From NCBI GenBank assembly GCA_937891805.1, contig CALATK010000309.1, positions 1 to 25,625 on the forward strand: 25,625 nt of DNA. The letters are read 5' to 3'. Shown here one piece after another: positions 15,631 to 25,625 of the stretch. Every line of letters begins with the position of its first letter. Position 1 is the stretch's first letter. The notes under the pieces were generated by a model. That model searched no databases, was not told where the DNA came from, and saw only the letters and a program-made list of their open reading frames with translations. The position numbers and the translations under genes were made by a program. Origin of the DNA: an uncultured Fibrobacter sp. (GTDB lineage: Bacteria > Fibrobacterota > Fibrobacteria > Fibrobacterales > Fibrobacteraceae).

Positions 15631-17277
15631 CTACGGTTTCAGTAGTAATTTGTTGTTTCCTTGGAGACCGTCATTGTCAAAACGGACGGTAGGATTCTTG
15701 CCTCTCTTGTAAGCATCTTCGCTTTCGTAGAGGGATAATGCCACGGAAACATCTGGACGGGTCGCGAAATTCGCCGCACCTGCAGCAACTTTATGCGTGA
15801 AGGAGAAATCCTGCGAAGTGGCGTCCTTGAAGGTCCCCTTGGGAATGCGGAGGGTCTCACCGATTTGTGCGAGGGTATTGCCCGTAGTGTCCACGAATTC
15901 CGCCACCATATAGACATCAAAGAAACAAGGAGCCACACCGGTGTTCTTGACGGTAATGTTCAATGTGCTTGTGGTATCTTTGGCCGTTGCGACGGTCGCC
16001 AACTCCGCACGGGTCACTGTGAAATTATAGCCGATGACCTTGGTCATGGAATCTGCCAGCGCCTTGTTTTCGTTGTAGAACCGGTAGCCGCAATCATCGA
16101 AACCCTGGTCCAGTACATAATAGGTCAAGTGGGCCGTAGTAATGGCATCTACCCAGCGCTCCGGAGTCCACTTGAGGTAGCCACCAGGAATCACATCGGT
16201 ATATTCCAGCATGAGTGCGTAGGCACCGCAGTTTTCGGCAACGGTGGGCATGTTCGCCTCGTAGGCGCGCACCAGCGAATCAGCGGTTCCGGGAATGCCG
16301 ATAAGGCAGTCGTCGCGCTTGGTAATGCCAAGGCCGAGTGCGTAGGTATAGACATCGCCATAACCATCGGAAGGCAGCACCAGCAAGCTTTTCTTGAATA
16401 CGGAGGCGTAATGTTTCAGCATGTCCTTCTGGATTTCCACCGAGGGCATGTGGCTTCCGTCCAGATTCGAGACATGCCATTCGCCCCATTCGCCGAAAGA
16501 ACGCACGTCGATGTATTCAATGCGCGGGTCGCCATCATACTTTGCCGCGAGGGCCGTCGCAAAATCCTTTGCGGCCTGCAAATAGTTCGGATCATCCCAA
16601 ACAGGGACGACCGCATTGGAACCGTTCCCCTTGTAGGTCGCCGTAATCTTTTTCGCGCCCGCCTCGTAAACAAATTTCGGGGTCCAGTCATAGTTCTCTT
16701 CGGGGGTGTTGTTGTCCTTGATAAAGCTAGGCGAATACGGGAATACACGTAGGGCATAACCCATATTGTGCGCAGTGAGTGCATCCAGCAATTCTTCCAA
16801 ATCGCTCCAGTCGTAAACATCCTTGGCCGGATTCAGCTTGTTCCACTGCTGGTAGCCGGAACCGTAGGTAACCAGGTTCCAAGCGCCGTTTTTCAGGGAG
16901 CCGTGAGGCCCGTATTCAAAGCCGGGATCAAAAGTCCATGCGGCTTCGGTAGGCACCGTAAAACCTTTGTGGGGGTTCGTGAGCGGCCCCACGAAAGGCT
17001 TGAGGGTGTAGGTGACTTTGGTGGTGTCCATTAAGTTCACTGAGCCTGCCGAAGTGAACTTATCGCTACTAGACGAACCCTCTGTCACCCTGGAGTCACT
17101 AGCCCCTGAGCCGGAATCACCGTTTTCACTGGTAGATGAGACTTCTATTGACGAACTCAAGTCTTCAGCAGCACTGCTTTCACCACTCTCAGAGGCGGAA
17201 CTACTCGAGTCACCGCCACAGGCGGACAACGTAATGGCTACGGCAGCCAGGAAGGCCTTGAGGTTATTGTGCTTCAT
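15631..17277 (-). CDS. DUF4832/DUF4874 glycoside-hydrolase-like lipoprotein
   Basis: The start is ATG 17277, with GGAG upstream and an immediate lipoprotein signal peptide ending LSACGG (lipid-modified C20); the 31 extra in-frame codons upstream are dismissed. A Ser/Glu/Asp-rich spacer (about residues 22-72), typical of Fibrobacter surface lipoproteins, leads to a ~330-residue TIM-barrel-like domain with NPHKGF, WSDLEELLDAL, ALRVFPYSP and IDVRSFGEWGEWHVS. The last is the DUF4832 motif, whose Glu pair stands where GH42/GH10-like enzymes hold the acid/base. A C-terminal beta-sandwich domain of about 120 residues (LNITVKNTGVAPCFFDVYM) is typical of DUF4832. The protein should be anchored at the outer membrane and act on polysaccharide; the substrate is unknown. 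The end of the spacer (DKFTSAGSVNL) is encoded by a perfect inverted repeat. Confidence 0.8.
   Translation of the reverse strand: MKHNNLKAFLAAVAITLSACGGDSSSSASESGESSAAEDLSSSIEVSSTSENGDSGSGASDSRVTEGSSSSDKFTSAGSVNLMDTTKVTYTLKPFVGPLTNPHKGFTVPTEAAWTFDPGFEYGPHGSLKNGAWNLVTYGSGYQQWNKLNPAKDVYDWSDLEELLDALTAHNMGYALRVFPYSPSFIKDNNTPEENYDWTPKFVYEAGAKKITATYKGNGSNAVVPVWDDPNYLQAAKDFATALAAKYDGDPRIEYIDVRSFGEWGEWHVSNLDGSHMPSVEIQKDMLKHYASVFKKSLLVLPSDGYGDVYTYALGLGITKRDDCLIGIPGTADSLVRAYEANMPTVAENCGAYALMLEYTDVIPGGYLKWTPERWVDAITTAHLTYYVLDQGFDDCGYRFYNENKALADSMTKVIGYNFTVTRAELATVATAKDTTSTLNITVKNTGVAPCFFDVYMVAEFVDTTGNTLAQIGETLRIPKGTFKDATSQDFSFTHKVAAGAANFATRPDVSVALSLYESEDAYKRGKNPTVRFDNDGLQGNNKLLLKP
17032..17062. repeat. 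inverted repeat inside the lipoprotein spacer
   Basis: TAAGTTCACT (17032-17041) and AGTGAACTTA (17053-17062) are perfect 10-bp arms around an 11-base loop. On the coding strand the loop region reads TTCGGCAGGCTCAGTGA, which has the look of a widespread genomic palindrome (recollection, not checked). It is in frame and stop-free. Confidence 0.6.
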
Positions 17278-17332
17278 AGAATCTCCAGGTGTTCTTCTTA
17301 ATATATGTTTTACACGGGCAGATGGTGTTTTT

Positions 17333-17488
17333 TTATGAGATTTTACACAAAAATGTTGAATAGCTGCCACACGCCCTGCGGATGCTCGTCTCCCCGAACT
17401 TGGAGAGTTCTTCCATGATGCCGTAGATGGCGTCTGCCTTGGCGTTGTCGCAGTCGATAATCAGGGCTATTTTCTTTTCCGTGTCCAT
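17333..17488 (-). pseudogene. N-terminal remnant of a NYN-domain (DUF88) protein
   Basis: From ATG 17488 the frame encodes about 38 residues that match the start of LabA/DUF88 NYN nucleases: EKKIALIIDCDNAKADAIYG, then IMEELSKFGETSIRRA. The D-x-D-N segment carries the first metal-binding Asp of the PIN-like fold. After RRACGS the sequence stops matching and ends at TAA 17333, so over 80% of a usual NYN protein (about 230 residues or more) is missing. The codons are GC-rich, like the core genes and unlike the AT-rich operon to the right. It starts 45 bases after the WYL gene stop on the same strand. It probably marks an old rearrangement at the island border, with the lost part replaced by the upstream region of the lipoprotein gene. 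Confidence 0.65.
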
Positions 17489-17533
17489 GGTAGGGAATAT
17501 ATAAAAAAATGAAAGGTGATAGAAGAATTAGCT

Positions 17534-18568
17534 TTAGTGTAAGGGTTTTATTTTGCCATATTGATCCATCATCTTTTTCACATCGTCAATAATCTCGTTT
17601 CGTAGAGATTCTGGTTCAAGAACAAGTCTTTCTCCAAATTTTGATGCCATTTCTCTTTTTAGCTCGAAATTGACAATGCATTTGATGGAAAAAAACTTGC
17701 CGTCATCTTCTGGAACAGAATATTTTTTTTGTAATTCAGCAGTTCGACTTTTTTTTAGTAATTTCTGAGACGAGTGAATAGGCTTGCCTTCTAAATAGGC
17801 GCATTCTCTTTTTGATGCCCAGAAAATAATTTCCTGCGGTGTTTCACCATCTTTTCTAGTCACCCCAATCATATCATCAAAATACTCATTCCAGTCAATA
17901 GCACATGGTTCAAATTTTTTTGAGGAATTCTGAACATTTTCAATTTGTTCTAAAGAAAACGTAAGGATTTTCTTCTTGTCCATTGCAAGTCCAAAAAGGA
18001 ACCATCGAGCATTGTACTGCTTTAGCAACTGAGGATACAATTCAACAACATTAGACTTTTTATTATGAATAGGATGGTAATCAAATTTTATTGTTTTTTT
18101 ATTTTCAATAAAATTTATCAATTTCGGTAATAAATCACGATTTTTTAAATCTTCATTTCTGTCAAAAATAATGAGAGGTTGGTTAGTATTATCAAACGAT
18201 TCCTTTAGTCGATCAAAAAATTCAAAACCTTCTATACCGTCCATTTGCCCGACTATACGTGAAAATGCTTGCAAAAGTTTTTTCTCGGATGCAGAAACAC
18301 TTTGGTTAAAGATACTATCAGTTTGATTAGCATATCGTATGATTGTGCTTTTACCAGAACGTTCTCTTTCTATTAATCTAAACTGTTGTTGAATAAATTT
18401 TATATCTTTTTCAAGACAACGGCGTCCTACATGGCGTTCGCCTAATACCTCAAGTTGCTCATTGCATAATCTTGTCAAATCGTTCATTGTATAACGACGA
18501 ACTACGCTCTCTGAAAGCAATCCATCAAGAATTTTTATTCGCAAGAAAGCGTTTTTATTTGTCGGCAT
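17534..18568 (-). CDS. WYL-domain transcriptional regulator
   Basis: The 344-residue protein has an N-terminal winged-helix region (residues about 5-60, DLTRLCNEQL and RRCLEKDIKFIQ), a helical linker, and a WYL domain around KTIKFDYHP and ARWFLFGLAMDKKKILTFSL. The name-giving W-Y-L is represented by RWFLFG, a common variant. A C-terminal WCX-like extension follows (about 250-344). WYL regulators bind small ligands or nucleic acid and often control phage-defence loci. Its ATG lies 14 bases inside the end of the VWA gene, with AAGGA at 10 bases, so it is the last gene of the RavA/VWA operon and likely its autoregulator. A candidate operator is the 36-bp dyad at 22925-22960. The gene is AT-rich like the rest of the operon. 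Confidence 0.85.
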   Translation of the reverse strand: MPTNKNAFLRIKILDGLLSESVVRRYTMNDLTRLCNEQLEVLGERHVGRRCLEKDIKFIQQQFRLIERERSGKSTIIRYANQTDSIFNQSVSASEKKLLQAFSRIVGQMDGIEGFEFFDRLKESFDNTNQPLIIFDRNEDLKNRDLLPKLINFIENKKTIKFDYHPIHNKKSNVVELYPQLLKQYNARWFLFGLAMDKKKILTFSLEQIENVQNSSKKFEPCAIDWNEYFDDMIGVTRKDGETPQEIIFWASKRECAYLEGKPIHSSQKLLKKSRTAELQKKYSVPEDDGKFFSIKCIVNFELKREMASKFGERLVLEPESLRNEIIDDVKKMMDQYGKIKPLH

Positions 18569-20621
18569 TATCGGATTTTCCTTGACTTGCGGGACGCGTT
18601 TTTATGGAATGCAGTAGCTCAACTAAATGTCGTGAAGCATGAATATCGTTTGTGTTATAAGACCAGTTGTGGCTAAAACAATCTATCGTACCCTGGTTTC
18701 CGCTTGTTCCGATTACAAGGCTGTAAAAATCGGTATTCTTTTTTTTCTCTACTTCAATGGCATTAATTAAATCGCTCGGAAGATTTGCCATTACAAAATC
18801 CGATATCATAAGGACGTCTGCAGTCTTATAATCGTTAGATTGGAGCATTTGTAATGCGTGTTGCAATGCCGGGCGTGCATCTGTGCCACCATTAAACGAC
18901 ATTTGTAGAAAGCGGACAAGTTTCTGCAAACTATCGCCTTTTTTGAAGTCGCTCATGTCTAGAGTTTCTATTCCTGTAGAGAATGAAATTAGGTAGCATT
19001 TTCGTTCTTCTTCTAGAGCGATTTTAGATAAGGCAAATGTTACAGTCTTTGCAATGTTTTCCGGTGTTCCCTGCATAGAACCACTTGTGTCTACACAGAT
19101 AATAATGGGACCCTTGGGTTCCTTCTTTTCGATGGAAACCTCTTCTTGCGTAGATTCTTTTCTTGTCCTTGCAATATTTCTTTGGTATTCAAAAGACAAC
19201 AGCTGCTTTTGGGCAAATCGCAACTGGAAGAGTTTCTTTGTCGCCGGATTCTTCATCAACGCCAATTCACTTGGCAAGACCGAGGAGATATCATTTGAAA
19301 AACAAATGCCCTTAATCTCTCCACGATAGGCATTTTGGGGATGCCATTCCGTTTTTATGACAACCTTATCGCGAAGTTCCTTTTCAAAAATGGATTGAGC
19401 ACGGTTATGCTTGCCCAGGATTTCAGCAAGTTCTTGCAATGATTGATCTTGTTCAAGGAGCTTCGCAAATTGCTCTAAAATTTCAAAACCACTGGTTTCA
19501 AATACCCCTTCGGATAAATTCCAAAGACGTCCGAAATCCTTGATGAATGGAGAAAGAAGTTTTTCAAGACGCTTGAAGTTCTGTATTTTTTTATACAGTT
19601 CGTCAAGGAATGATTTGCGCATCTTGTCAATACGTTCTTGCTCCCATTTGTTTTTCCGGTCAATAAGGCTTTTTTCCATATCAGCAATGAAATTCCTGCG
19701 AAGAACTTCTAATTGCTCCACGGATTTCCATTGGATAGGTGCTTTATCTTTGCGGTCCTTTTTCGGCTCTTTCTTCTGTTCTGCAAACTGATTTTTATAG
19801 AAATCAAAATTAAGATTGCTAGGGGCAATTGAGCCTCGTTTCGATTCGCTTACAGAAGGTAATCGCCTATAGTGGTATTGGATTTTTGAATTCTCATTCG
19901 TTAAATCTGTAGCGACATCTATGGCGAACAATTTCTTTTGTTGCTCTATAAAAATAGATTCATCTAGGAAAGGATCTTCCTTGTCAAGGGTTTCCTTTGT
20001 TTGCTGCAACCATTCGAGAATATCCGTTTGGATATTTTCTGAGACGCCCTCGTGAGATTGGATGTAATCCTTTATGTCATCATGGGCAAGAATGTCTGAA
20101 AACGTTTTTTCAGCGAGCTTGGCGTAATTGTTTTGGGGAAATTCAATCTTAATATCGGTGGGCTCAACAGGTGATGCCATATCCTCTATTGCGTCGACAA
20201 GTTGCTTTCGATCTGCTTCGGAACCAAAAGCGCTGCTTGATGCAAAATTTTCAAATTTGCGCTTTTTCTTGGAATGATGACGATGGAAACCTATTTTTTT
20301 ACCTAAATCATCCGATATCTTCTGTATATTTTGAAAAAGAGTATTACATAATCCTAAGAAATCTTTATCAGAAAGATTTTCTGTGGCGTGAGCTGTTATA
20401 TTTCTTATCAATCTCATTGGATGCCACCAAGAGCATCTGGATAAGGATAAACCTTCATCTTTTATGCATTCGCGAAATTGTTGTATTTTTACTTGAACCC
20501 ATGCACGAGATTCTTCTGAAATTACAGTAACATCAGAAATTCCAGATGGAAATTTTTCTCGTATAGCATGAAGCGCGTCAATAGCTTTACGACAATTTAA
20601 GCGAAGACCTTTATTTGCCAT
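18555..20621 (-). CDS. ViaA-like VWA protein with N-terminal adaptor domain
   Basis: The start ATG 20621 is preferred because AAAGG sits 6 bases upstream; ATG 20627 lies directly against it. The 688-residue protein has three parts. Residues 1-100 form a helical domain (HAIREKFPSGISDV; SRAWVQVKIQQF; HATENLSDKDF) that is homologous to the entire 93-residue protein encoded upstream. Residues 100-500 form a long charged, partly coiled-coil middle. The C-terminal VWA domain has a complete MIDAS: DTSGS (about 511-515), the Thr of GGTDARP (about 580) and the Asp of MISDF (about 608). This matches ViaA/CoxE-type VWA proteins, which partner MoxR/RavA ATPases and bind ligands through the metal. It is about 200 residues longer than E. 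coli ViaA (about 483), the difference being the adaptor domain and linker. Confidence 0.85.
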   Translation of the reverse strand: MANKGLRLNCRKAIDALHAIREKFPSGISDVTVISEESRAWVQVKIQQFRECIKDEGLSLSRCSWWHPMRLIRNITAHATENLSDKDFLGLCNTLFQNIQKISDDLGKKIGFHRHHSKKKRKFENFASSSAFGSEADRKQLVDAIEDMASPVEPTDIKIEFPQNNYAKLAEKTFSDILAHDDIKDYIQSHEGVSENIQTDILEWLQQTKETLDKEDPFLDESIFIEQQKKLFAIDVATDLTNENSKIQYHYRRLPSVSESKRGSIAPSNLNFDFYKNQFAEQKKEPKKDRKDKAPIQWKSVEQLEVLRRNFIADMEKSLIDRKNKWEQERIDKMRKSFLDELYKKIQNFKRLEKLLSPFIKDFGRLWNLSEGVFETSGFEILEQFAKLLEQDQSLQELAEILGKHNRAQSIFEKELRDKVVIKTEWHPQNAYRGEIKGICFSNDISSVLPSELALMKNPATKKLFQLRFAQKQLLSFEYQRNIARTRKESTQEEVSIEKKEPKGPIIICVDTSGSMQGTPENIAKTVTFALSKIALEEERKCYLISFSTGIETLDMSDFKKGDSLQKLVRFLQMSFNGGTDARPALQHALQMLQSNDYKTADVLMISDFVMANLPSDLINAIEVEKKKNTDFYSLVIGTSGNQGTIDCFSHNWSYNTNDIHASRHLVELLHSIKTRPASQGKSDNADK

Positions 20622-20623
20622 AT

Positions 20624-20905
20624 TCATCCTTTCTTTGACATGGTTTCGATTTTGTCCATGTTAGCAAATACAAATGATACGATTTTCTGCATTTCATTGT
20701 CAGGAATATCTTCTGTCGCGTGTATTAAGCGATTTCCGATTTCTTCAAGTTGACTTATTACTTGAGAGGGGACAATTTCTTCTGCAATAGACTGTATCTT
20801 CATATGCAACCAAGCCTTTTGTTCATCCGAAAGAGAATGAACATCTGGCATGCCGTCAGGAAATTTCTGACGCAAGACTGCTATTACATTTTGAGGGGTT
20901 TGCAT
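20624..20905 (-). CDS. stand-alone adaptor-like protein, paralogous to the VWA N-terminus
   Basis: The 93-residue helical protein has no signal peptide. ATG 20905 is preceded by AAGG. It lies 8 bases after the ATPase stop, and its own stop is two bases before the VWA start, so it is tightly built into the operon. It aligns along most of its length with residues 1-100 of the VWA protein: VLRQKFPDGMPDVHSLSDEQ versus AIREKFPSGISDVTVISEES, KAWLHMKIQ versus RAWVQVKIQ, and IHATEDIPDNE versus AHATENLSDKD. I know no named family for it. Such a pair of free and fused copies suggests homotypic pairing or competition, which would place this protein as a subunit, adaptor or regulator of the ATPase/VWA complex. 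That is inference. Confidence 0.75.
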   Translation of the reverse strand: MQTPQNVIAVLRQKFPDGMPDVHSLSDEQKAWLHMKIQSIAEEIVPSQVISQLEEIGNRLIHATEDIPDNEMQKIVSFVFANMDKIETMSKKG

Positions 20906-20913
20906 AATTTGCC

Positions 20914-22845
20914 TTAATCATGATAACGGGAACGTTTTTTGTCTAAATCAACCTGAGCGTTTTGCAGGTCTCTTTTTGCTTCGGTTACGGCGTTCATGAT
21001 GGCATTGCAATAATATTGGTCTGCAAAAAGGTTGGCCTTGTATGGTGAGGATTGATCTTTGGCGAAATAATCAAGTTTTTGAATTTCAGAAGAGATATGG
21101 TCTGCAATGGGTTGATAATTAGACTTGTCAACTTGACTTTGAATTGCGTTAAGATTATTTTCCTTGCCAGGAGCGAATAAAGATGAATCTTTCTGAAGCC
21201 CTCCTGGTGTAGTTTCGATTTCCATTGAATATGAACGATCATTAAAGCCGTTATAATTGCGCCAAAAATCAGTCCATGATACGGTATCCTGTTCTATCTT
21301 AAAAGATGAAAAAGAAAAGTTGAAATTAGGACCTAATTGGTTTTTGTGTTCATCATAGAGCATTCCGTGTCTATCGTTACGCCCACTCCAAGTAAAATCA
21401 TTACACACATAAAAAGGTTTGACATTATGGTCGGCAAAGTATACATTTTGAGGATTTTTGATTTTGTACGCTTGCAAACCATCATTCATGGTATATTTTA
21501 TGGGGATTTTTTCAGCTTCAACAAAAAATCTTTTTGTAATTACGGAATCAAATTCTTTGATTTGCTCTTTAATTTCGTCTATTGCGGTATCGCAATCCAA
21601 ACCATTCTGCTGAATACATTTTTCGACAATTTCACGAGCGACTTTCTGTTGTTTTTCTGTACTCCAAATACAATACTCAATAAGCTGGCAATCCATCAAA
21701 TCAACGTCAGTACGATCATTAAGGAATGCCGATGTCTTCAAAATATGAACGATTTTCTTCCAACGACGGTCACCAACTTCAAAAAGTTCCCCATTTTGCT
21801 TATCGTCTTCGCTCATTGCTTCATTGCGAGACACGAGTTCCTTACGAATCGCAGAAATAACGGATTTTGCTGCATCAGAAAGTGGTATTTCATCAATTTC
21901 CTTTTTCCATTCCTCCAATTCTGCATTGGTAATTTGGAGTTTCTTTACTTCTTCAGGAAGTTCAAATTCAGACGAAGACGGAGCATTAACCATTTCAAAG
22001 AAATTATTCTCATCATCAATAAACGATACAACTAATCTGAGAATTAAACGATCGTATAAAGCTTTTAAGCCCTGGCCCTTGGCAGGAAGTTCATTAGAAG
22101 CCGTAAAGAGGGCTTTCAGCGGAACAGACTGGACTTCGTTTCCATTATGAAATTTGCGTTCATTCACAATTGTGAGCAGAGAATTCAAAATAGTTGAATT
22201 CGCTTTCCAGATTTCATCCAAAAAAGCGATATCTGCTTCTGGAAGCATGCCTTCAGTAAGACGCCGATATACTTCTTTATCTTTGCATTCCGGTAATTCG
22301 CCATTTAATCCTTTAAGAGACACATTTCCAAAGACTTCGTCCGGTGTCGTATATGCATTGAGAAGAGTTTCAAAGTATTTGACCTTATCGTCGCCATCCG
22401 CCTTGAATGCCTTCACGATTCTTCTGGCAATCATGCTCTTTGCGCAGCCGGGATCGCCTAGGAAAAAAATGCTTTCTCCAGCAATTGCAGTAAGTAAAGC
22501 TAGACGAACTGCTTCATCCTTTTCGTAAAGGCCCTCAGAAAGCGCGTCTCGCAACGCCTTGATTCTGTCGTGGAGTTTCACATTGTTGTTTGTCGTGTTT
22601 TGGGGAGTAGTCATGGGTTTCTCCATAGGTTTAAAATTTTTACGGTTTACAAAAATGCCTTCTTTCTTGTAATCCAATTTAAAGTTTCCTGAAGATTTGA
22701 GAATCTGCTCGTATCTTGAAGCCTGTTTTTTGTCAAGCCCAGTTTTTTGAATCATGTCAGCAAAGGGCACAACAATAGCCTTCCGTTCCTGAGTGAGGGC
22801 GTTGAAGGCTTCATCGAGTTTTTGTAAGATGTCGGTTTCGGTCAT
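20914..22845 (-). CDS. RavA-like MoxR AAA+ ATPase
   Basis: The start ATG 22845 has AAGGA upstream; the frame's further 35 codons lack similarity. The 643-residue protein begins with a winged-helix-like segment (residues 5-70), then a MoxR AAA+ core: Walker A GDPGCAKS (130-137), TPDEVFG (168-173), Walker B IAFLDEIWKAN (206-216), sensor ASNELP and YDRLILRL (about 264-271) carrying the Arg after the Asp. FLDEIWKAN-TILNSLLTIVNER closely follows E. coli RavA. The C-terminal ~300 residues are helical flanks around a beta-rich section with many aromatic residues (about 470-560), placed as RavA places its LARA domain but not recognisably similar to it. It is the first gene of the operon and should form a hexamer powering the VWA partner. 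The E. coli pair RavA-ViaA acts on membrane and respiratory proteins; the role here is open. Confidence 0.88.
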   Translation of the reverse strand: MTETDILQKLDEAFNALTQERKAIVVPFADMIQKTGLDKKQASRYEQILKSSGNFKLDYKKEGIFVNRKNFKPMEKPMTTPQNTTNNNVKLHDRIKALRDALSEGLYEKDEAVRLALLTAIAGESIFFLGDPGCAKSMIARRIVKAFKADGDDKVKYFETLLNAYTTPDEVFGNVSLKGLNGELPECKDKEVYRRLTEGMLPEADIAFLDEIWKANSTILNSLLTIVNERKFHNGNEVQSVPLKALFTASNELPAKGQGLKALYDRLILRLVVSFIDDENNFFEMVNAPSSSEFELPEEVKKLQITNAELEEWKKEIDEIPLSDAAKSVISAIRKELVSRNEAMSEDDKQNGELFEVGDRRWKKIVHILKTSAFLNDRTDVDLMDCQLIEYCIWSTEKQQKVAREIVEKCIQQNGLDCDTAIDEIKEQIKEFDSVITKRFFVEAEKIPIKYTMNDGLQAYKIKNPQNVYFADHNVKPFYVCNDFTWSGRNDRHGMLYDEHKNQLGPNFNFSFSSFKIEQDTVSWTDFWRNYNGFNDRSYSMEIETTPGGLQKDSSLFAPGKENNLNAIQSQVDKSNYQPIADHISSEIQKLDYFAKDQSSPYKANLFADQYYCNAIMNAVTEAKRDLQNAQVDLDKKRSRYHD

Positions 22846-22924
22846 AGTAGATTCCTTTTTCTTGGTTTTAAATATAACCAAAAATTTGCACGAAGGAAAC
22901 AACTTTTTCTTTGAGTTGACACTT

Positions 22925-22960
22925 TGCGAACGTTCAGTTCGTACGAACATAAAATTCGCA
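22925..22960. promoter_or_regulatory. nested 36-bp dyad, candidate operator
   Basis: A perfect 12-bp palindrome GTTCGTACGAAC (22937-22948) and outer arms TGCGAA (22925-22930) and TTCGCA (22955-22960) share exactly the same centre (22942.5). A second short palindrome, GAACGTTC (22928-22935), overlaps the left arm. It lies in the divergent region between the RavA-like operon and the HicA-like gene, roughly 80 bases from the former start and 46 from the latter, so one protein bound here could control both. The WYL protein of the operon is the natural candidate. No convincing -35/-10 pair could be fixed, though TATATT at 22970-22975 may be the -10 of the plus-strand gene. Confidence 0.55.
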
Positions 22961-23005
22961 TATTAAGAGTATATTATGCGCATCACTTTTTATCCCGGAG
23001 GCAAC

Positions 23006-23284
23006 ATGCCCTACATATCCAGCAACAAAAACATCCGCGATTTCGTTCAGAACATTCTTCGTTCTGGACAATGGGAAATCGTCAGACACGGTAAACACGT
23101 CATTATTCGCCATATAGCGGAGTATGCCAATAAAACTATCGTGATCCCGAGTACCCCTAGCGATCCAAGGACTTTTGACAATTTTCGACGAGATTACTAT
23201 CGCTATTTGCGACAGTATTTCACTCAGGTCGGATGGATTAGGAACGAATCCATTTCCCTACAGTCTTCACCCTTAGCAGCATAA
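23006..23284 (+). CDS. HicA-like small basic protein
   Basis: ATG 23006 is preceded by GGAGG at ideal spacing and is preferred to ATG 22976. The 92-residue protein begins with helical NIRDFVQNILRSGQWEIVR, then HGKHVIIRHI (the position of the HicA catalytic G-x-H), VIPSTPSDPRTFDNF and RRDYYRYLRQYF. This alpha-beta-beta-beta-alpha order resembles the HicA/YcfA double-stranded-RNA-binding-like fold, the toxin of HicAB systems, with a His at the expected place. No HicB antitoxin follows; instead a 37-residue protein does. Toxin activity is therefore not assured. It is divergent from the RavA-like operon across the nested dyad. Confidence 0.65.
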   Translation: MPYISSNKNIRDFVQNILRSGQWEIVRHGKHVIIRHIAEYANKTIVIPSTPSDPRTFDNFRRDYYRYLRQYFTQVGWIRNESISLQSSPLAA

Positions 23285-23298
23285 AGGAGGTAATACCT

Positions 23299-23412
23299 AT
23301 GTCTAAGCATAATGGACAGCCGCCCGTCAATCCTCACGGAGCCGGATGGCCTTCTACTACAGGAGGCAAGTCTGGTCGTGGTCGCGGCGGCAACCCGCCT
23401 AAGGGCAAATAG
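23299..23412 (+). CDS. 37-residue Gly/Pro-rich basic protein
   Basis: A tiny gene that starts at ATG 23299, preceded by AAAGGAGGT, the longest anti-Shine-Dalgarno match in the window, and ends at TAG 23412. The product begins MSKHNGQPPVNPHGAGWP, continues STTGGKSGRGRGGNPPKGK, and is unstructured, basic and rich in Gly, Pro and Asn, with one Trp. It is 14 bases after the HicA-like stop and shares its terminator. The strong ribosome site and strict gene pairing argue that it is translated. It may be an antidote, a nucleic-acid-binding peptide or a secreted peptide; nothing in the sequence decides. Confidence 0.6.
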   Translation: MSKHNGQPPVNPHGAGWPSTTGGKSGRGRGGNPPKGK

Positions 23413-23434
23413 TCCTTGACGACCAAGTAACCCG

Positions 23435-23463
23435 CTCCCCGACCTCGCGCTCGGGGAGTTTTT
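23435..23463 (+). terminator. strong intrinsic terminator
   Basis: CTCCCCGA (23435-23442) and TCGGGGAG (23451-23458) make a perfect 8-bp GC-rich stem with an 8-base loop, followed at once by TTTTT (23459-23463). It ends the HicA-like / 37-residue transcript, just before the 3' end of the convergent ATPase gene. Confidence 0.9.
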
Positions 23464-23472
23464 ACAATATTC

Positions 23473-24768
23473 CTAATTATCCTTAAAATATCCCTGCACG
23501 GCAAATAGCGGGACATTTTCCATCCATTGCTGGTTTATGTAAGGTTTCATCGAGAAGCGGAGCCCCACTAAATCACTGTTGCGTTCAATAAAGGTTCGCA
23601 GCGATTTTGAATGAACGTTTTCTTCGGCCTTGACTTCAACAGGAACGACGCGATTATTTGTTTGCACGACAAAATCTAATTCCACTTGGGAATCGTTTGT
23701 AGAGTAATAACGAACCAATTTTTCCATTGCCATAAGCTGAGTCAAGACATATTCCTCGGCAAAGGCGCCACTATACTCCGAAAAGATTTTCTCCCCGATA
23801 AGTACTTTTTCGGCACTCACGTCCATTTGCGCTCCAAGCAGCCCAACATCCAGTACGAAAAGTTTATATACAGAGGACTCCTCGTAAAAGCGGATTGGCA
23901 TTTGTACTTTGCTAATGCGCGGGATTTTGTACACAAGCCCTGCATCTAAAAGCCATTGCAATGCTAGTTCATATTTGGATGCCCGTTCGCCTTTTTTCAA
24001 TGCGCTATACAGAAATTTCTTGTTCTCTTTCGACAACTGACGCGGAATGGAATCCCAAATCATTTTGATCCTCGCGTGTTCGTGCGGAGGAGCGTGTTTC
24101 GAAAAATCATTCTCGTAATCAGCAAGAATTTGCCTTTGTATTTTACGGACTTCTGCAGGGCCACTCCCTTCAAGGAATGCTGACACTACGGCAGGCATCC
24201 CGCCCACATAATAGTATTGACGCAAAAGTTCCACGAACATCGTCGAAAGCGATCTAAGCGTATCCCAGTCTTTTTTGTTCAGAGCTTCTGCAGCTAGGTC
24301 TTTTTTGCTTGCTAGCAGGAACTCTTCAAATGTTAGGGGATAGAGCTTTAAAAAATCCACCTTGCCTACAGGGAAAGATGCCCCCGCATGGAGTGCGATT
24401 CCGAGCAAGGAGCCGGCAACAACAACATGATATTCAGGAGCGTCTTCACATAAATACTTGAGGCTTGTCAGTGCCCTAGGAAACTCCTGAATTTCGTCCA
24501 GTATAAGCAGAGTTTTTCCGGGCAGAATGTCCACACCCGAAAGCGCCGACAAGGACCGCACCAAGCGATGGGTGTCAAAATTTTCAAAAACATCATCTAG
24601 ATTTTCTGCTTTTTCACAGTTGATATAGGCGACAGATTCGTATTCCCGCTGACCAAATTCCTTGAGTAGCCAGGTTTTCCCGACCTGACGCGCTCCGTTC
24701 AAGATGAGCGGTTTTCGGTGCTTAGAGGCCTTCCACACCAACAAATCCCTGTAAAGCAGTCGTTCCAT
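23473..24768 (-). CDS. AAA_14 / DUF4143 ATPase
   Basis: The start ATG 24768 has TTTGGAGT upstream; the frame continues 16 codons further without family similarity. The 431-residue protein has the common archaeal-bacterial ATPase layout: MERLLYRDLL, Walker A GARQVGKT (25-32), Walker B TLLILDEIQ (D90-E91), sensor region VVVAGSLLGI, and TFEEFL. DUF4143 then forms the second half, ending in a nuclease-like element (VELDFVVQTNNRVVPVEVKA), where Asp, Glu and Lys fit a PD-(D/E)xK fold. These proteins are frequent in accessory regions of gut bacteria. Their role is unclear, although a defence or toxin-like function has been suggested for some. The upstream region carries regularly spaced repeats that may serve autoregulation. 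It is intact. Confidence 0.88.
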   Translation of the reverse strand: MERLLYRDLLVWKASKHRKPLILNGARQVGKTWLLKEFGQREYESVAYINCEKAENLDDVFENFDTHRLVRSLSALSGVDILPGKTLLILDEIQEFPRALTSLKYLCEDAPEYHVVVAGSLLGIALHAGASFPVGKVDFLKLYPLTFEEFLLASKKDLAAEALNKKDWDTLRSLSTMFVELLRQYYYVGGMPAVVSAFLEGSGPAEVRKIQRQILADYENDFSKHAPPHEHARIKMIWDSIPRQLSKENKKFLYSALKKGERASKYELALQWLLDAGLVYKIPRISKVQMPIRFYEESSVYKLFVLDVGLLGAQMDVSAEKVLIGEKIFSEYSGAFAEEYVLTQLMAMEKLVRYYSTNDSQVELDFVVQTNNRVVPVEVKAEENVHSKSLRTFIERNSDLVGLRFSMKPYINQQWMENVPLFAVQGYFKDN

Positions 24769-24783
24769 ACTCCAAATATACAC

Positions 24784-24905
24784 TTTTTTGGACGAATATT
24801 TCACATAATTTGACAATTTTTCGGACGATTAATCAACCTAAACAGACATTTTTTACGACGAATGCTAAAATTTGCAAAATTTAGCCACTTTTTGACGAAG
24901 ATATG
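24784..24905. repeat. phased T5-GACGA repeats with embedded palindrome
   Basis: Four copies of a T-run followed by GACGA: TTTTTTGGACGAAT (24784-24797), TTTTTCGGACGATT (24817-24830), TTTTTACGACGAAT (24850-24863) and TTTTTGACGAAGAT (24889-24902). The GACGA cores start at 24791, 24824, 24857 and 24894, i.e. 33, 33 and 37 bases apart. Between copies three and four is a 22-bp near-perfect palindrome (24864-24885; GCTAAA, TTTGCAAA and TTTAGC blocks, with one mismatched pair of positions). The array covers the upstream region of the DUF4143 ATPase, so it is probably a protein-binding array controlling that gene. There is no gene in 24769-24942. Confidence 0.6.
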
Positions 24906-24942
24906 AAATAGCGTTTCATACCTCCGTATTTTTATATCTTGA

Positions 24943-25287
24943 CTATTTCCCCAGCACCGCCATCACGTCTTCTGTAATCTGCTTGGGCGTGAGGCGGTTA
25001 CATTCCATAAGTTCGCCGTAAGGGACCTTGTCGTAAAATTCCTTCTTGAGGCCCTTTACCAGAACGCGCATGTCGCAGTTGCCGTAGAAGCGGGCGATTT
25101 TTTCGCCGAAGCCGCCATCGACCACGCCGTTTTCGAGCGTCACGACAACCTGGTGGTCGGCGCACAATCCCGTGAGCGTAGCTTCGTCGATGCCGGTGGC
25201 GAAAAGCCATAAACGCAGCATAAATCCCAGCACGCCGCCGCCAAGGGCCAGCAGCGGGATATATCTGGGTTTGAAGAGATTTTTCAT
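24943..25287 (-). CDS. dxs: chimeric frame: DXP synthase C-terminus joined to a foreign membrane-protein start
   Basis: From the stop at 24943 to about 25188 the frame encodes the end of 1-deoxy-D-xylulose-5-phosphate synthase: DEATLTGLCADHQVVV, TLENGVVDGGFGEKIARFYG and a final MAVLGK. This is the transketolase C-terminal domain with its conserved TLE.GV..GGFG segment (isoprenoid precursor synthesis by the non-mevalonate route). From about 25183 to ATG 25287 it instead reads MKNLFKPRYIPLLALGGGVL then GFMLRLWLFATGIDE, the start of a small membrane protein familiar to me from clostridial genomes. A real DXS is about 620 residues; here only about 80 remain and the other 540 are missing. The two parts meet at the bases for Asp-Glu, which both share. 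The product as drawn is unlikely to exist. The membrane part has GGGAG and a -10 TATAAT (25320-25325) on the minus strand. Confidence 0.7.
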   Translation of the reverse strand: MKNLFKPRYIPLLALGGGVLGFMLRLWLFATGIDEATLTGLCADHQVVVTLENGVVDGGFGEKIARFYGNCDMRVLVKGLKKEFYDKVPYGELMECNRLTPKQITEDVMAVLGK

Positions 25288-25369
25288 AGGTGTGAACTCC
25301 CAAAAAACATATTGCTGTTATTATACCAATATATGCAGCGGATTTCCAGTCCTTTTGGAAAATTTACAC

Positions 25370-25398
25370 TTGTTTCTTGCGCTGTTTGGCTGTATAAT
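25370..25398 (+). promoter_or_regulatory. sigma-70 promoter
   Basis: TTGTTT (25370-25375), a 17-base spacer and TATAAT (25393-25398), 34 bases before the ATG of the plus-strand gene. It is the clearest consensus promoter in the window, and unlike the upstream genes, whose promoters are not readable. Confidence 0.65.
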
Positions 25399-25431
25399 AA
25401 AATGAATTTGTATGTGCTTTGGAGGAAACCT

Positions 25432-25625
25432 ATGGTTTTGATTATAACGGTTCTGGCCCTTTCCCTGCTGGCATCCGCAGGGATCTGCATGGGAACAGGC
25501 GCCTTTGGGTCTGTTACCTGGCTCTGGCTGCTGCCTGTAGGCTTTATCGGCGCTCTGCTGGTCATTGCCGGACTTCTGGTGCTGATCGTGTGGCTGATCT
25601 CCCAGTGTGTGGATTTTGAAAAGGC
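25432..25625 (+). CDS. membrane protein N-terminus (partial), possible acyltransferase
   Basis: ATG 25432 follows GGAGG at good spacing and the 25370-25398 promoter. The 64 visible residues form two hydrophobic helices (MVLIITVLALSLLASAGICM, then WLWLLPVGFIGALLVIAGLL and VLIVWLISQ) and end in CVDFEKA, where the window stops. From memory, clostridial 1-acyl-glycerol-3-phosphate acyltransferases begin with a similar membrane hairpin leading to VDF, but the catalytic HX4D motif lies outside the window, so this is only a suggestion. It is divergent from the 25287 frame. Confidence 0.55.
   Translation, partial: MVLIITVLALSLLASAGICMGTGAFGSVTWLWLLPVGFIGALLVIAGLLVLIVWLISQCVDFEK

Follow-up and report, generated by a model that had tools for sequence, protein, structure and literature searches.

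RavA-ViaA is among the best studied MoxR pairs, and the purpose of such pairs across bacteria is, in our view, unsettled. The question is raised again by a 25,625-nucleotide stretch of contig CALATK010000309.1 from an uncultured Fibrobacter sp. (the window), where four open reading frames (ORFs) follow each other on the minus strand, to which all coordinates refer unless stated otherwise. They encode a RavA-like MoxR AAA+ ATPase of 643 residues (20914..22845), a small protein of 93 residues (20624..20905), a ViaA-like VWA protein of 690 residues (18555..20627) and a WYL-domain regulator of 344 residues (17534..18568). Is this a chaperone of the RavA-ViaA type or something different? The comparisons presented here indicate that the cassette is probably a mobile RavA/ViaA-type machine controlling a HEPN ribonuclease. 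It resembles a so far undescribed machine for phage defence or for shutting down the cell, and we infer its role in phage defence together with the trigger, the RNA target and the outcome. A VWA protein bearing a predicted ribonuclease, crossing phyla and located among defence genes, would show a chaperone-type pair becoming a conflict machine.

The ATPase gene most likely starts at 22845, with AAGGAAT upstream and relatives starting alike. An 8-base gap separates it from the small gene, which overlaps the VWA gene by 4 bases, and the VWA and WYL genes overlap by 14 bases. The tight packing on one strand described in the initial annotation of this DNA therefore holds, and so does the expectation that the operon stays together: the ATPase, small and VWA genes recur jointly in two phyla, more often than by chance.

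A ViaA-like protein with a predicted HEPN-type domain and its free paralogue

We were able to show, by comparison of sequences, that the VWA protein consists of a ViaA-like body and an extra N-terminal domain with an invariant HEPN-type Rx4H motif. Residues 304-660 align to positions 123-476 of the NCBIfam ViaA model NF008230 (267 bits, below the cut-off of 500), and the C-terminus extends 30 residues beyond this ViaA-like part. The VWA domain (18795..19106; Pfam VWA_2, 44.8 bits) carries the complete metal ion-dependent adhesion site (DTSGSM, GGTD, SDF) recognized from the start, and D[TS]SGSM is kept in 115 of 117 VWA relatives over 600 residues. The relatives were 120 listed of 428 proteins, many of them near-identical, so that counts among them are not independent; over residues 1-300 the 120 show 58-94% identity.

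The first 111 residues (20295..20627) are predicted to form a HEPN domain. The AlphaFold 2 (AF2) model has four helices with a predicted local distance difference test (pLDDT) score of 82.7, and the 11 best rows of a structural comparison with this model were all HEPN toxins. A plain Foldseek search with the HEPN model returned nothing at E<=0.001 and no HEPN among the 50 rows shown, and a PDB profile search with the HEPN-like alignment gave as its best match (0.0036) a chimera of an H. pylori protein, with HEPN in none of 18 matches. The HEPN ribonuclease site has been described as following the pattern Rx4-6H with a polar residue after the arginine (PMC3710099). The VWA N-terminus has this pattern in R75-N76-I-T-A-H80 (20388..20405). 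R75, N76 and H80 are invariant in 120 of 120 aligned rows (the window and 119 of the 120 listed proteins; P0118, of 379 residues, was excluded), and RNxxxH is present in 16/16 VWA proteins from the mapped loci, two short frames (L060, L077) included. Loci (L) and genomes (G) carry our running numbers. This HEPN-like domain is the likely effector of the system and had been overlooked earlier.

The small protein matches residues 1 to ~105 of the VWA protein with 32% identity (E=1e-12), so that the N-terminal domain of the latter also exists as a free copy encoded directly upstream. Rather than adaptor-like, as had been suggested, the small protein is a HEPN-like paralogue of this domain, with a motif that is often decayed: the window copy reads GNRLIH, lacking the catalytic Rx4H pattern, and the arginine and the histidine are both kept in 23 of 71 rows. 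Two Pfam identities for the small protein, DUF1149 (0.0028) and Cytochrome_CBB3 (0.091), were below cut-off and judged to be chance matches.

The VWA protein has 58 matching rows among plasmid records. Of the 20 listed, 19, several with a ViaA annotation, have alignments confined to residues 313-662, and the remaining one is the Treponema saccharophilum relative. Since the alignments of these proteins leave out the N-terminal part, the HEPN-like domain is an addition to the ViaA plan. In the literature searched, which was partly accessible and omits most subscription papers, no description of a HEPN-ViaA protein was found.

The Rx4H motif remains constant in a domain that otherwise changes. 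Comparing the window with L001 gives 93% identity for the VWA body and 34% for the HEPN-like domain. Between L007 and L072 the values are 99% for the small protein, 90% for the VWA body, 48% for the HEPN-like domain and 54% for the ATPase insert described below. Across 18 loci the segment distances, corrected for the VWA body, correlate in all six pairs tested (partial r 0.51-0.78); no partner pair is therefore singled out, and co-variation was dropped as evidence. In G099 the open frame of the VWA protein (L028:7924-10338) has ~115 extra residues upstream of the HEPN-like domain, with no Pfam match at E<=0.01 there.

Two adjacent paralogues, one with a decayed motif, might in essence be a toxin-antitoxin pair: the small protein would neutralise the HEPN-VWA protein and vice versa, the ATPase would merely recycle them and the trigger would not be phage. 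HEPN toxins at the top of the structural list and a neighbouring HicA-like gene fit this explanation. However, linkage of three genes with a complete ATPase, its hypervariable insert and regulators that sense ligands exceeds the needs of such a pair, and at some loci the ATPase and the HEPN-VWA protein occur without the small gene, so that we regard it as improbable.

The RavA-like ATPase and its relation to known MoxR systems

The assignment of the first gene to a RavA-like ATPase is borne out: its best Pfam model is bpMoxR (154 bits), and it matches the NCBIfam RavA equivalog NF010054 with 290 bits, below the cut-off of 681. Foldseek with the ATPase model matched at E<=0.001 only three E. 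coli RavA chains, with low TM-scores, the modelled AAA core being poor. Walker A is intact in 119 of 120 listed relatives (of 4259 proteins, many near-identical and hence not independent counts). As modelled, a winged-helix domain lies in front (residues 1-70, 22636..22845), and at the place of the RavA LARA domain there is a mainly beta, hypervariable insert (residues 441-557, 21175..21525), which in the AF2 model has a pLDDT of 82-96 and is flanked by long helices. Compared with L001, residues 441-600 are 12-38% identical, whereas the other 40-residue blocks are 78-100% identical.

In some Treponema ATPases a lectin-like domain is added at the C-terminus; it matches Lcl_C below cut-off in L004 and L075, and in L074 it matches FGE-sulfatase (150 bits). 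In conflict systems diversified by retroelements, the variable part is usually a lectin-fold domain (PMC10907252). A diversity-generating retroelement as source of the hypervariable parts was rejected, the variable parts being different from the lectin-like tail; reverse transcriptase was not searched for.

The cassette and E. coli RavA-ViaA have in common a MoxR ATPase whose C-terminal helices, as modelled here, flank an insert, a VWA protein with its adhesion site in a ViaA-like body, and adjacent genes. They differ in the added N-terminal HEPN-like domain, its standalone paralogue, the ATPase winged helix, the WYL gene with its operator and the occurrence in sporadic islands. Could the cassette nevertheless be an assembly chaperone for an enzyme complex, with the N-terminal domain and the small protein as non-catalytic helical docking modules? 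RavA and ViaA are its nearest named models and RavA chains its only significant Foldseek matches; in E. coli, LARA binds LdcI (PMC9489729), RavA-ViaA has been linked with fumarate reductase (PMC10585395), and metal insertion by NorQD offers a parallel. Yet both scores stay far under the RavA and ViaA cut-offs, Rx4H is invariant within a domain that otherwise ranks with the fastest-changing parts, and the genes are present sporadically and in defence-rich islands. We consider this explanation rather unlikely.

The bpMoxR model is named for MoxR-vWA-beta-propeller ternary systems, and the cassette resembles the ternary MoxR-vWA conflict systems already described (VMAP, iSTAND, iSTAND2, TERNS3) in its MoxR and vWA core, a presumed effector and rapid diversification. 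If it belonged to them, the small protein could be a homotypic adaptor like the effector-associated domains, which are typically small and helical there (PMC8195603), and not a relative of ribonucleases. In those systems, however, effectors are typically C-terminal to vWA (PMC8195603), while here the extra domain is N-terminal and HEPN-type, and the 690-residue protein stops 30 residues past its ViaA-like part; the cassette is, moreover, RavA/ViaA-like. No known third component was found among the proteins scanned, which include part of the neighbours: VMAP, iSTAND and TERNS3 had no match in the operon proteins, and only VMAP-M14 matched, in 2 of 31 members and with 0.082 at best. The lack of a VMAP-type component noted in the initial annotation holds for the proteins scanned, and membership in the ternary systems appears very doubtful to us.

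Exchangeable regulators and a possible mechanism

The WYL protein (Pfam WYL 34.6 bits, cut-off 21.8; PADLOC WYL 5.2e-18) is encoded after the VWA gene in 5/5 mapped Fibrobacter loci. It had been counted as a member of the system and is present in these five loci, but WYL is not part of the core: most Treponema loci carry a CARF gene and a sigma-like gene instead, and at some divergent loci neither set is present. For WYL and CARF proteins a role in regulating defence systems through ligand binding has been proposed (PMC4012209). Like the WYL regulators of such systems, the window regulator belongs to an operon preceded by a predicted operator; it differs from them in being tied to a HEPN-VWA-MoxR cassette, in which CARF and sigma-like genes substitute for it in another phylum.

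The predicted operator upstream of the ATPase gene (22927..22958) consists of two imperfect 15-base-pair palindromes, CGAAYTNNNYRTTCG, with a 17-base-pair period. A pattern scan found two such palindromes in the window versus 0.02 expected, and the tandem is conserved across five aligned loci. Searching 80 Fibrobacter genomes with the derived pattern, we were able to show that it is restricted to carriers: it occurs once in each of the five and in none of the 75 others, and a reversed control gave 0/80. In G032 the operator lies on a separate short contig, adjoining a HicA-like ORF as in the window, and the ATPase frame runs off the fetched stretch. Promoter and terminator scans gave results at chance level only, and an Rfam scan of 17000-25625 gave no match.

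A standalone CARF gene is present in 12 and a full sigma-like gene in 11 of the 13 Treponema loci having the small gene and a complete upstream region (L004, L006, L007, L060, L061, L062, L063, L064, L065, L069, L071, L073, L080). Left out of this count were loci at contig ends (L005/L067, L008/L072, L010, L078) and L081, from the same species as L004. L060 has neither CARF nor sigma-like nor ATPase gene. At most ~70 bases separate the sigma-like gene from the ATPase frame in L062, L063, L065, L069, L071, L073 and L075; L009 and L075 have both regulatory genes without the small gene, and L070 has the CARF gene. No match to the small, CARF or sigma-like gene was found in L066, L068, L074, L076 and L077. 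In L064 (6736-7533) the CARF ORF and the C-terminal portion of the sigma-like gene form one continuous frame, resembling a deletion fusion.

PADLOC CARF2 matches 15/15 of the CARF proteins (best 2.4e-89), and the Treponema protein is annotated as a TM1812 family CRISPR-associated protein, CRISPR standing for clustered regularly interspaced short palindromic repeats. Pfam gave weak matches only, nothing CARF-like beyond Csa3_N (0.042) in one of the 15, and a PDB profile search with the CARF alignment yielded one chance-level match. For the other gene a sigma identity is weakly suggested by its profile: SigA, RpoD and RpoS chains matched at 0.001 and weaker, ranked under a non-sigma repeat protein at 4.1e-6.

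A vWA-MoxR-VMAP system with CARF has been reported near type III CRISPR (PMC10910872). Cas10 was over the cut-off of the Csm1 and Cmr2 models in none of 26 genomes, some of which are incomplete; sub-threshold matches occurred to Csm1 in 11/26 (at most 43 bits) and to Cmr2 in 1/26. Type III CRISPR was rejected as the CARF partner, the Csm1 matches being sub-threshold and mostly confined to model positions 7-149 in frames of ~510-540 residues; our guess is that these are HD-domain proteins. The exchange of WYL for CARF and a sigma-like gene around the same core, with no detectable Cas10, allows CARF signalling outside type III CRISPR to be tested. Rx4H and the probable HEPN fold are shared with HEPN toxins (HepT/HEPN-MNT) and CARF-HEPN effectors (Csx1/Csm6), and CARF is present in the same Treponema operons. 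Unlike in those proteins, HEPN is here fused to a VWA cochaperone and not to CARF or MNT, CARF is separate, and Cas10 does not exceed the cut-off.

How might a RavA/ViaA-type machine control a HEPN ribonuclease? In the resting cell active HEPN domains may be kept apart, or paired with an inactive partner, by the ATPase hexamer together with the VWA protein and the small pseudo-HEPN protein, the latter acting as an inhibitory or auxiliary partner of the ribonuclease. The hypervariable insert, the winged helix or both might sense a product of infection or damage. The MoxR ATPase NorQ has been proposed to act on the linker of its VWA partner NorD (PMC13036017); by analogy, ATP hydrolysis could tug the linker of the VWA protein (residues ~110-310). 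Two active HEPN domains would then pair, cut RNA and halt growth or phage replication. The WYL protein, or CARF with the sigma-like gene in Treponema, might read a nucleotide-type ligand and alter expression, in Fibrobacter via the operator. More tentatively, and with clearly less confidence than we place in HEPN control as such, this might be the first ring-ATPase-gated HEPN ribonuclease: a RavA/ViaA-type remodeller would stretch its VWA partner, a decoy HEPN paralogue would keep HEPN off, exchangeable receptors (WYL, or free-standing CARF with a sigma-like factor) would answer a messenger made without type III CRISPR, and the ATPase insert would sense phage or damage.

Distribution, insertion site and neighbouring genes

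Genome-by-genome searches covered the phyla of Fibrobacter and Treponema. The HEPN-like profile matched 5/80 Fibrobacter genomes, each with two nearby matches and the small gene adjoining the VWA gene in all five, and 5/167 genomes of the phylum, all in Fibrobacter. In the Treponema family 23 of 274 genomes matched, among them one likely false positive (G266; 38 profile positions matched, and L079 is without a VWA gene). Eleven of 392 genomes drawn from Treponema's phylum also matched, G436 and G547 lying outside the mapped loci. The small protein was found in 2/60 relatives, and a pattern scan of genome contigs, sensitive to close relatives only, found 10 loci, all in Fibrobacter or Treponema. 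VWA bodies of the window and the Treponema loci L004-L009 are 51-72% identical; identity of up to 72% between phyla indicates horizontal transfer for the closest loci. In Treponema saccharophilum the set is located on the 382-kb plasmid pTS2. As judged from sporadic carriers, cross-phylum identity, the plasmid copy and an empty site, the cassette is accessory and transferable. A phage-borne origin was rejected: phage records gave only partial ViaA-like matches, and a scan of IMG/VR, covering close relatives only, gave none.

The empty site is found at the position where the window island is bounded by a metallophosphoesterase gene and an ORF (24943..25287) whose end is the C-terminal remnant, ~84 residues long, of a gene of the 1-deoxyxylulose-5-phosphate synthase (DXS) type, 86% identical over 84 residues to the DXS of L028. 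By listed match positions, the two flank genes are 9 bases apart in G018, G084 and G086, and their matched parts ~400 bases apart in G029 and G096; they lie 7.6-10.7 kb apart, with other cargo between, in G001, G066 and G017. In G099 the system occupies 9.95 kb between them. The other four Fibrobacter carriers, for which a common site is not shown, differ in their flank genes: the phosphoesterase alone is nearby in G034, DXS alone in G087 and G032, and neither in G071. At the insertion site G017 (L089) carries Mokosh-like genes for a helicase and phospholipase-D, along with a counterpart (97% identity) of the window PDC-S01 gene described below; an RtcR-PspF type CARF_AAA_HTH regulator accompanies the Mokosh-like genes.

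The described AT-rich island between GC-rich flanks is confirmed on one side only. GC content is 33-40% across 17.5-23 kb and 48-60% to the left; as the right side stays at 44-46%, only the left flank is clearly GC-rich. The island genes reported at the outset are all present, as neighbours outside the core or as a remnant. A divergent HicA-like gene (22976..23284, plus strand; PADLOC 1.1e-12) adjoins the system also in L024 and L026 and, by eye, the operator in L082; HicB-like proteins had no match among six window proteins scanned. The AAA_14/DUF4143 gene (23473..24816; Pfam) is the PADLOC candidate PDC-S01 (5.5e-175). The truncated NYN gene is a 39-codon remnant (17372..17488). A full-length relative (Pfam NYN, 126 bits) comes after the WYL gene in two loci, L024 and L027, and is placed one gene farther away in L028.

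A defence-type neighbourhood recurs at other loci, the background rate at random loci being uncounted. Genes of a cyclic oligonucleotide-based antiphage signalling system (CBASS) adjoin L006, restriction-modification genes adjoin L001, a TIR-like protein and a type I specificity gene lie near L063, and Abi_2 genes occur in L006, L009, L072 and L075. CBASS as a constant partner was rejected, SMODS being over the cut-off in only 5/26 genomes. The ATPase, the small protein and the VWA protein each matched 0 families at E<=1 in PADLOC-DB 2.0.0. In L080 (4797-7353), CBASS genes (patatin, a split DncV-like CD-NTase, i.e. cGAS/DncV-like nucleotidyltransferase, and a third ORF) lie between the sigma-like and ATPase genes, and the ATPase frame is broken. 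Finally, a 474-residue AAA gene, PADLOC candidate PDC-S27 (3.2e-180 for the L087 copy), recurs in L087 (6689-8113), L024 (13470-14894) and L028 (2974-4398), the latter two copies judged by length and first residues, and is found both at the insertion site and adjoining the NYN gene.

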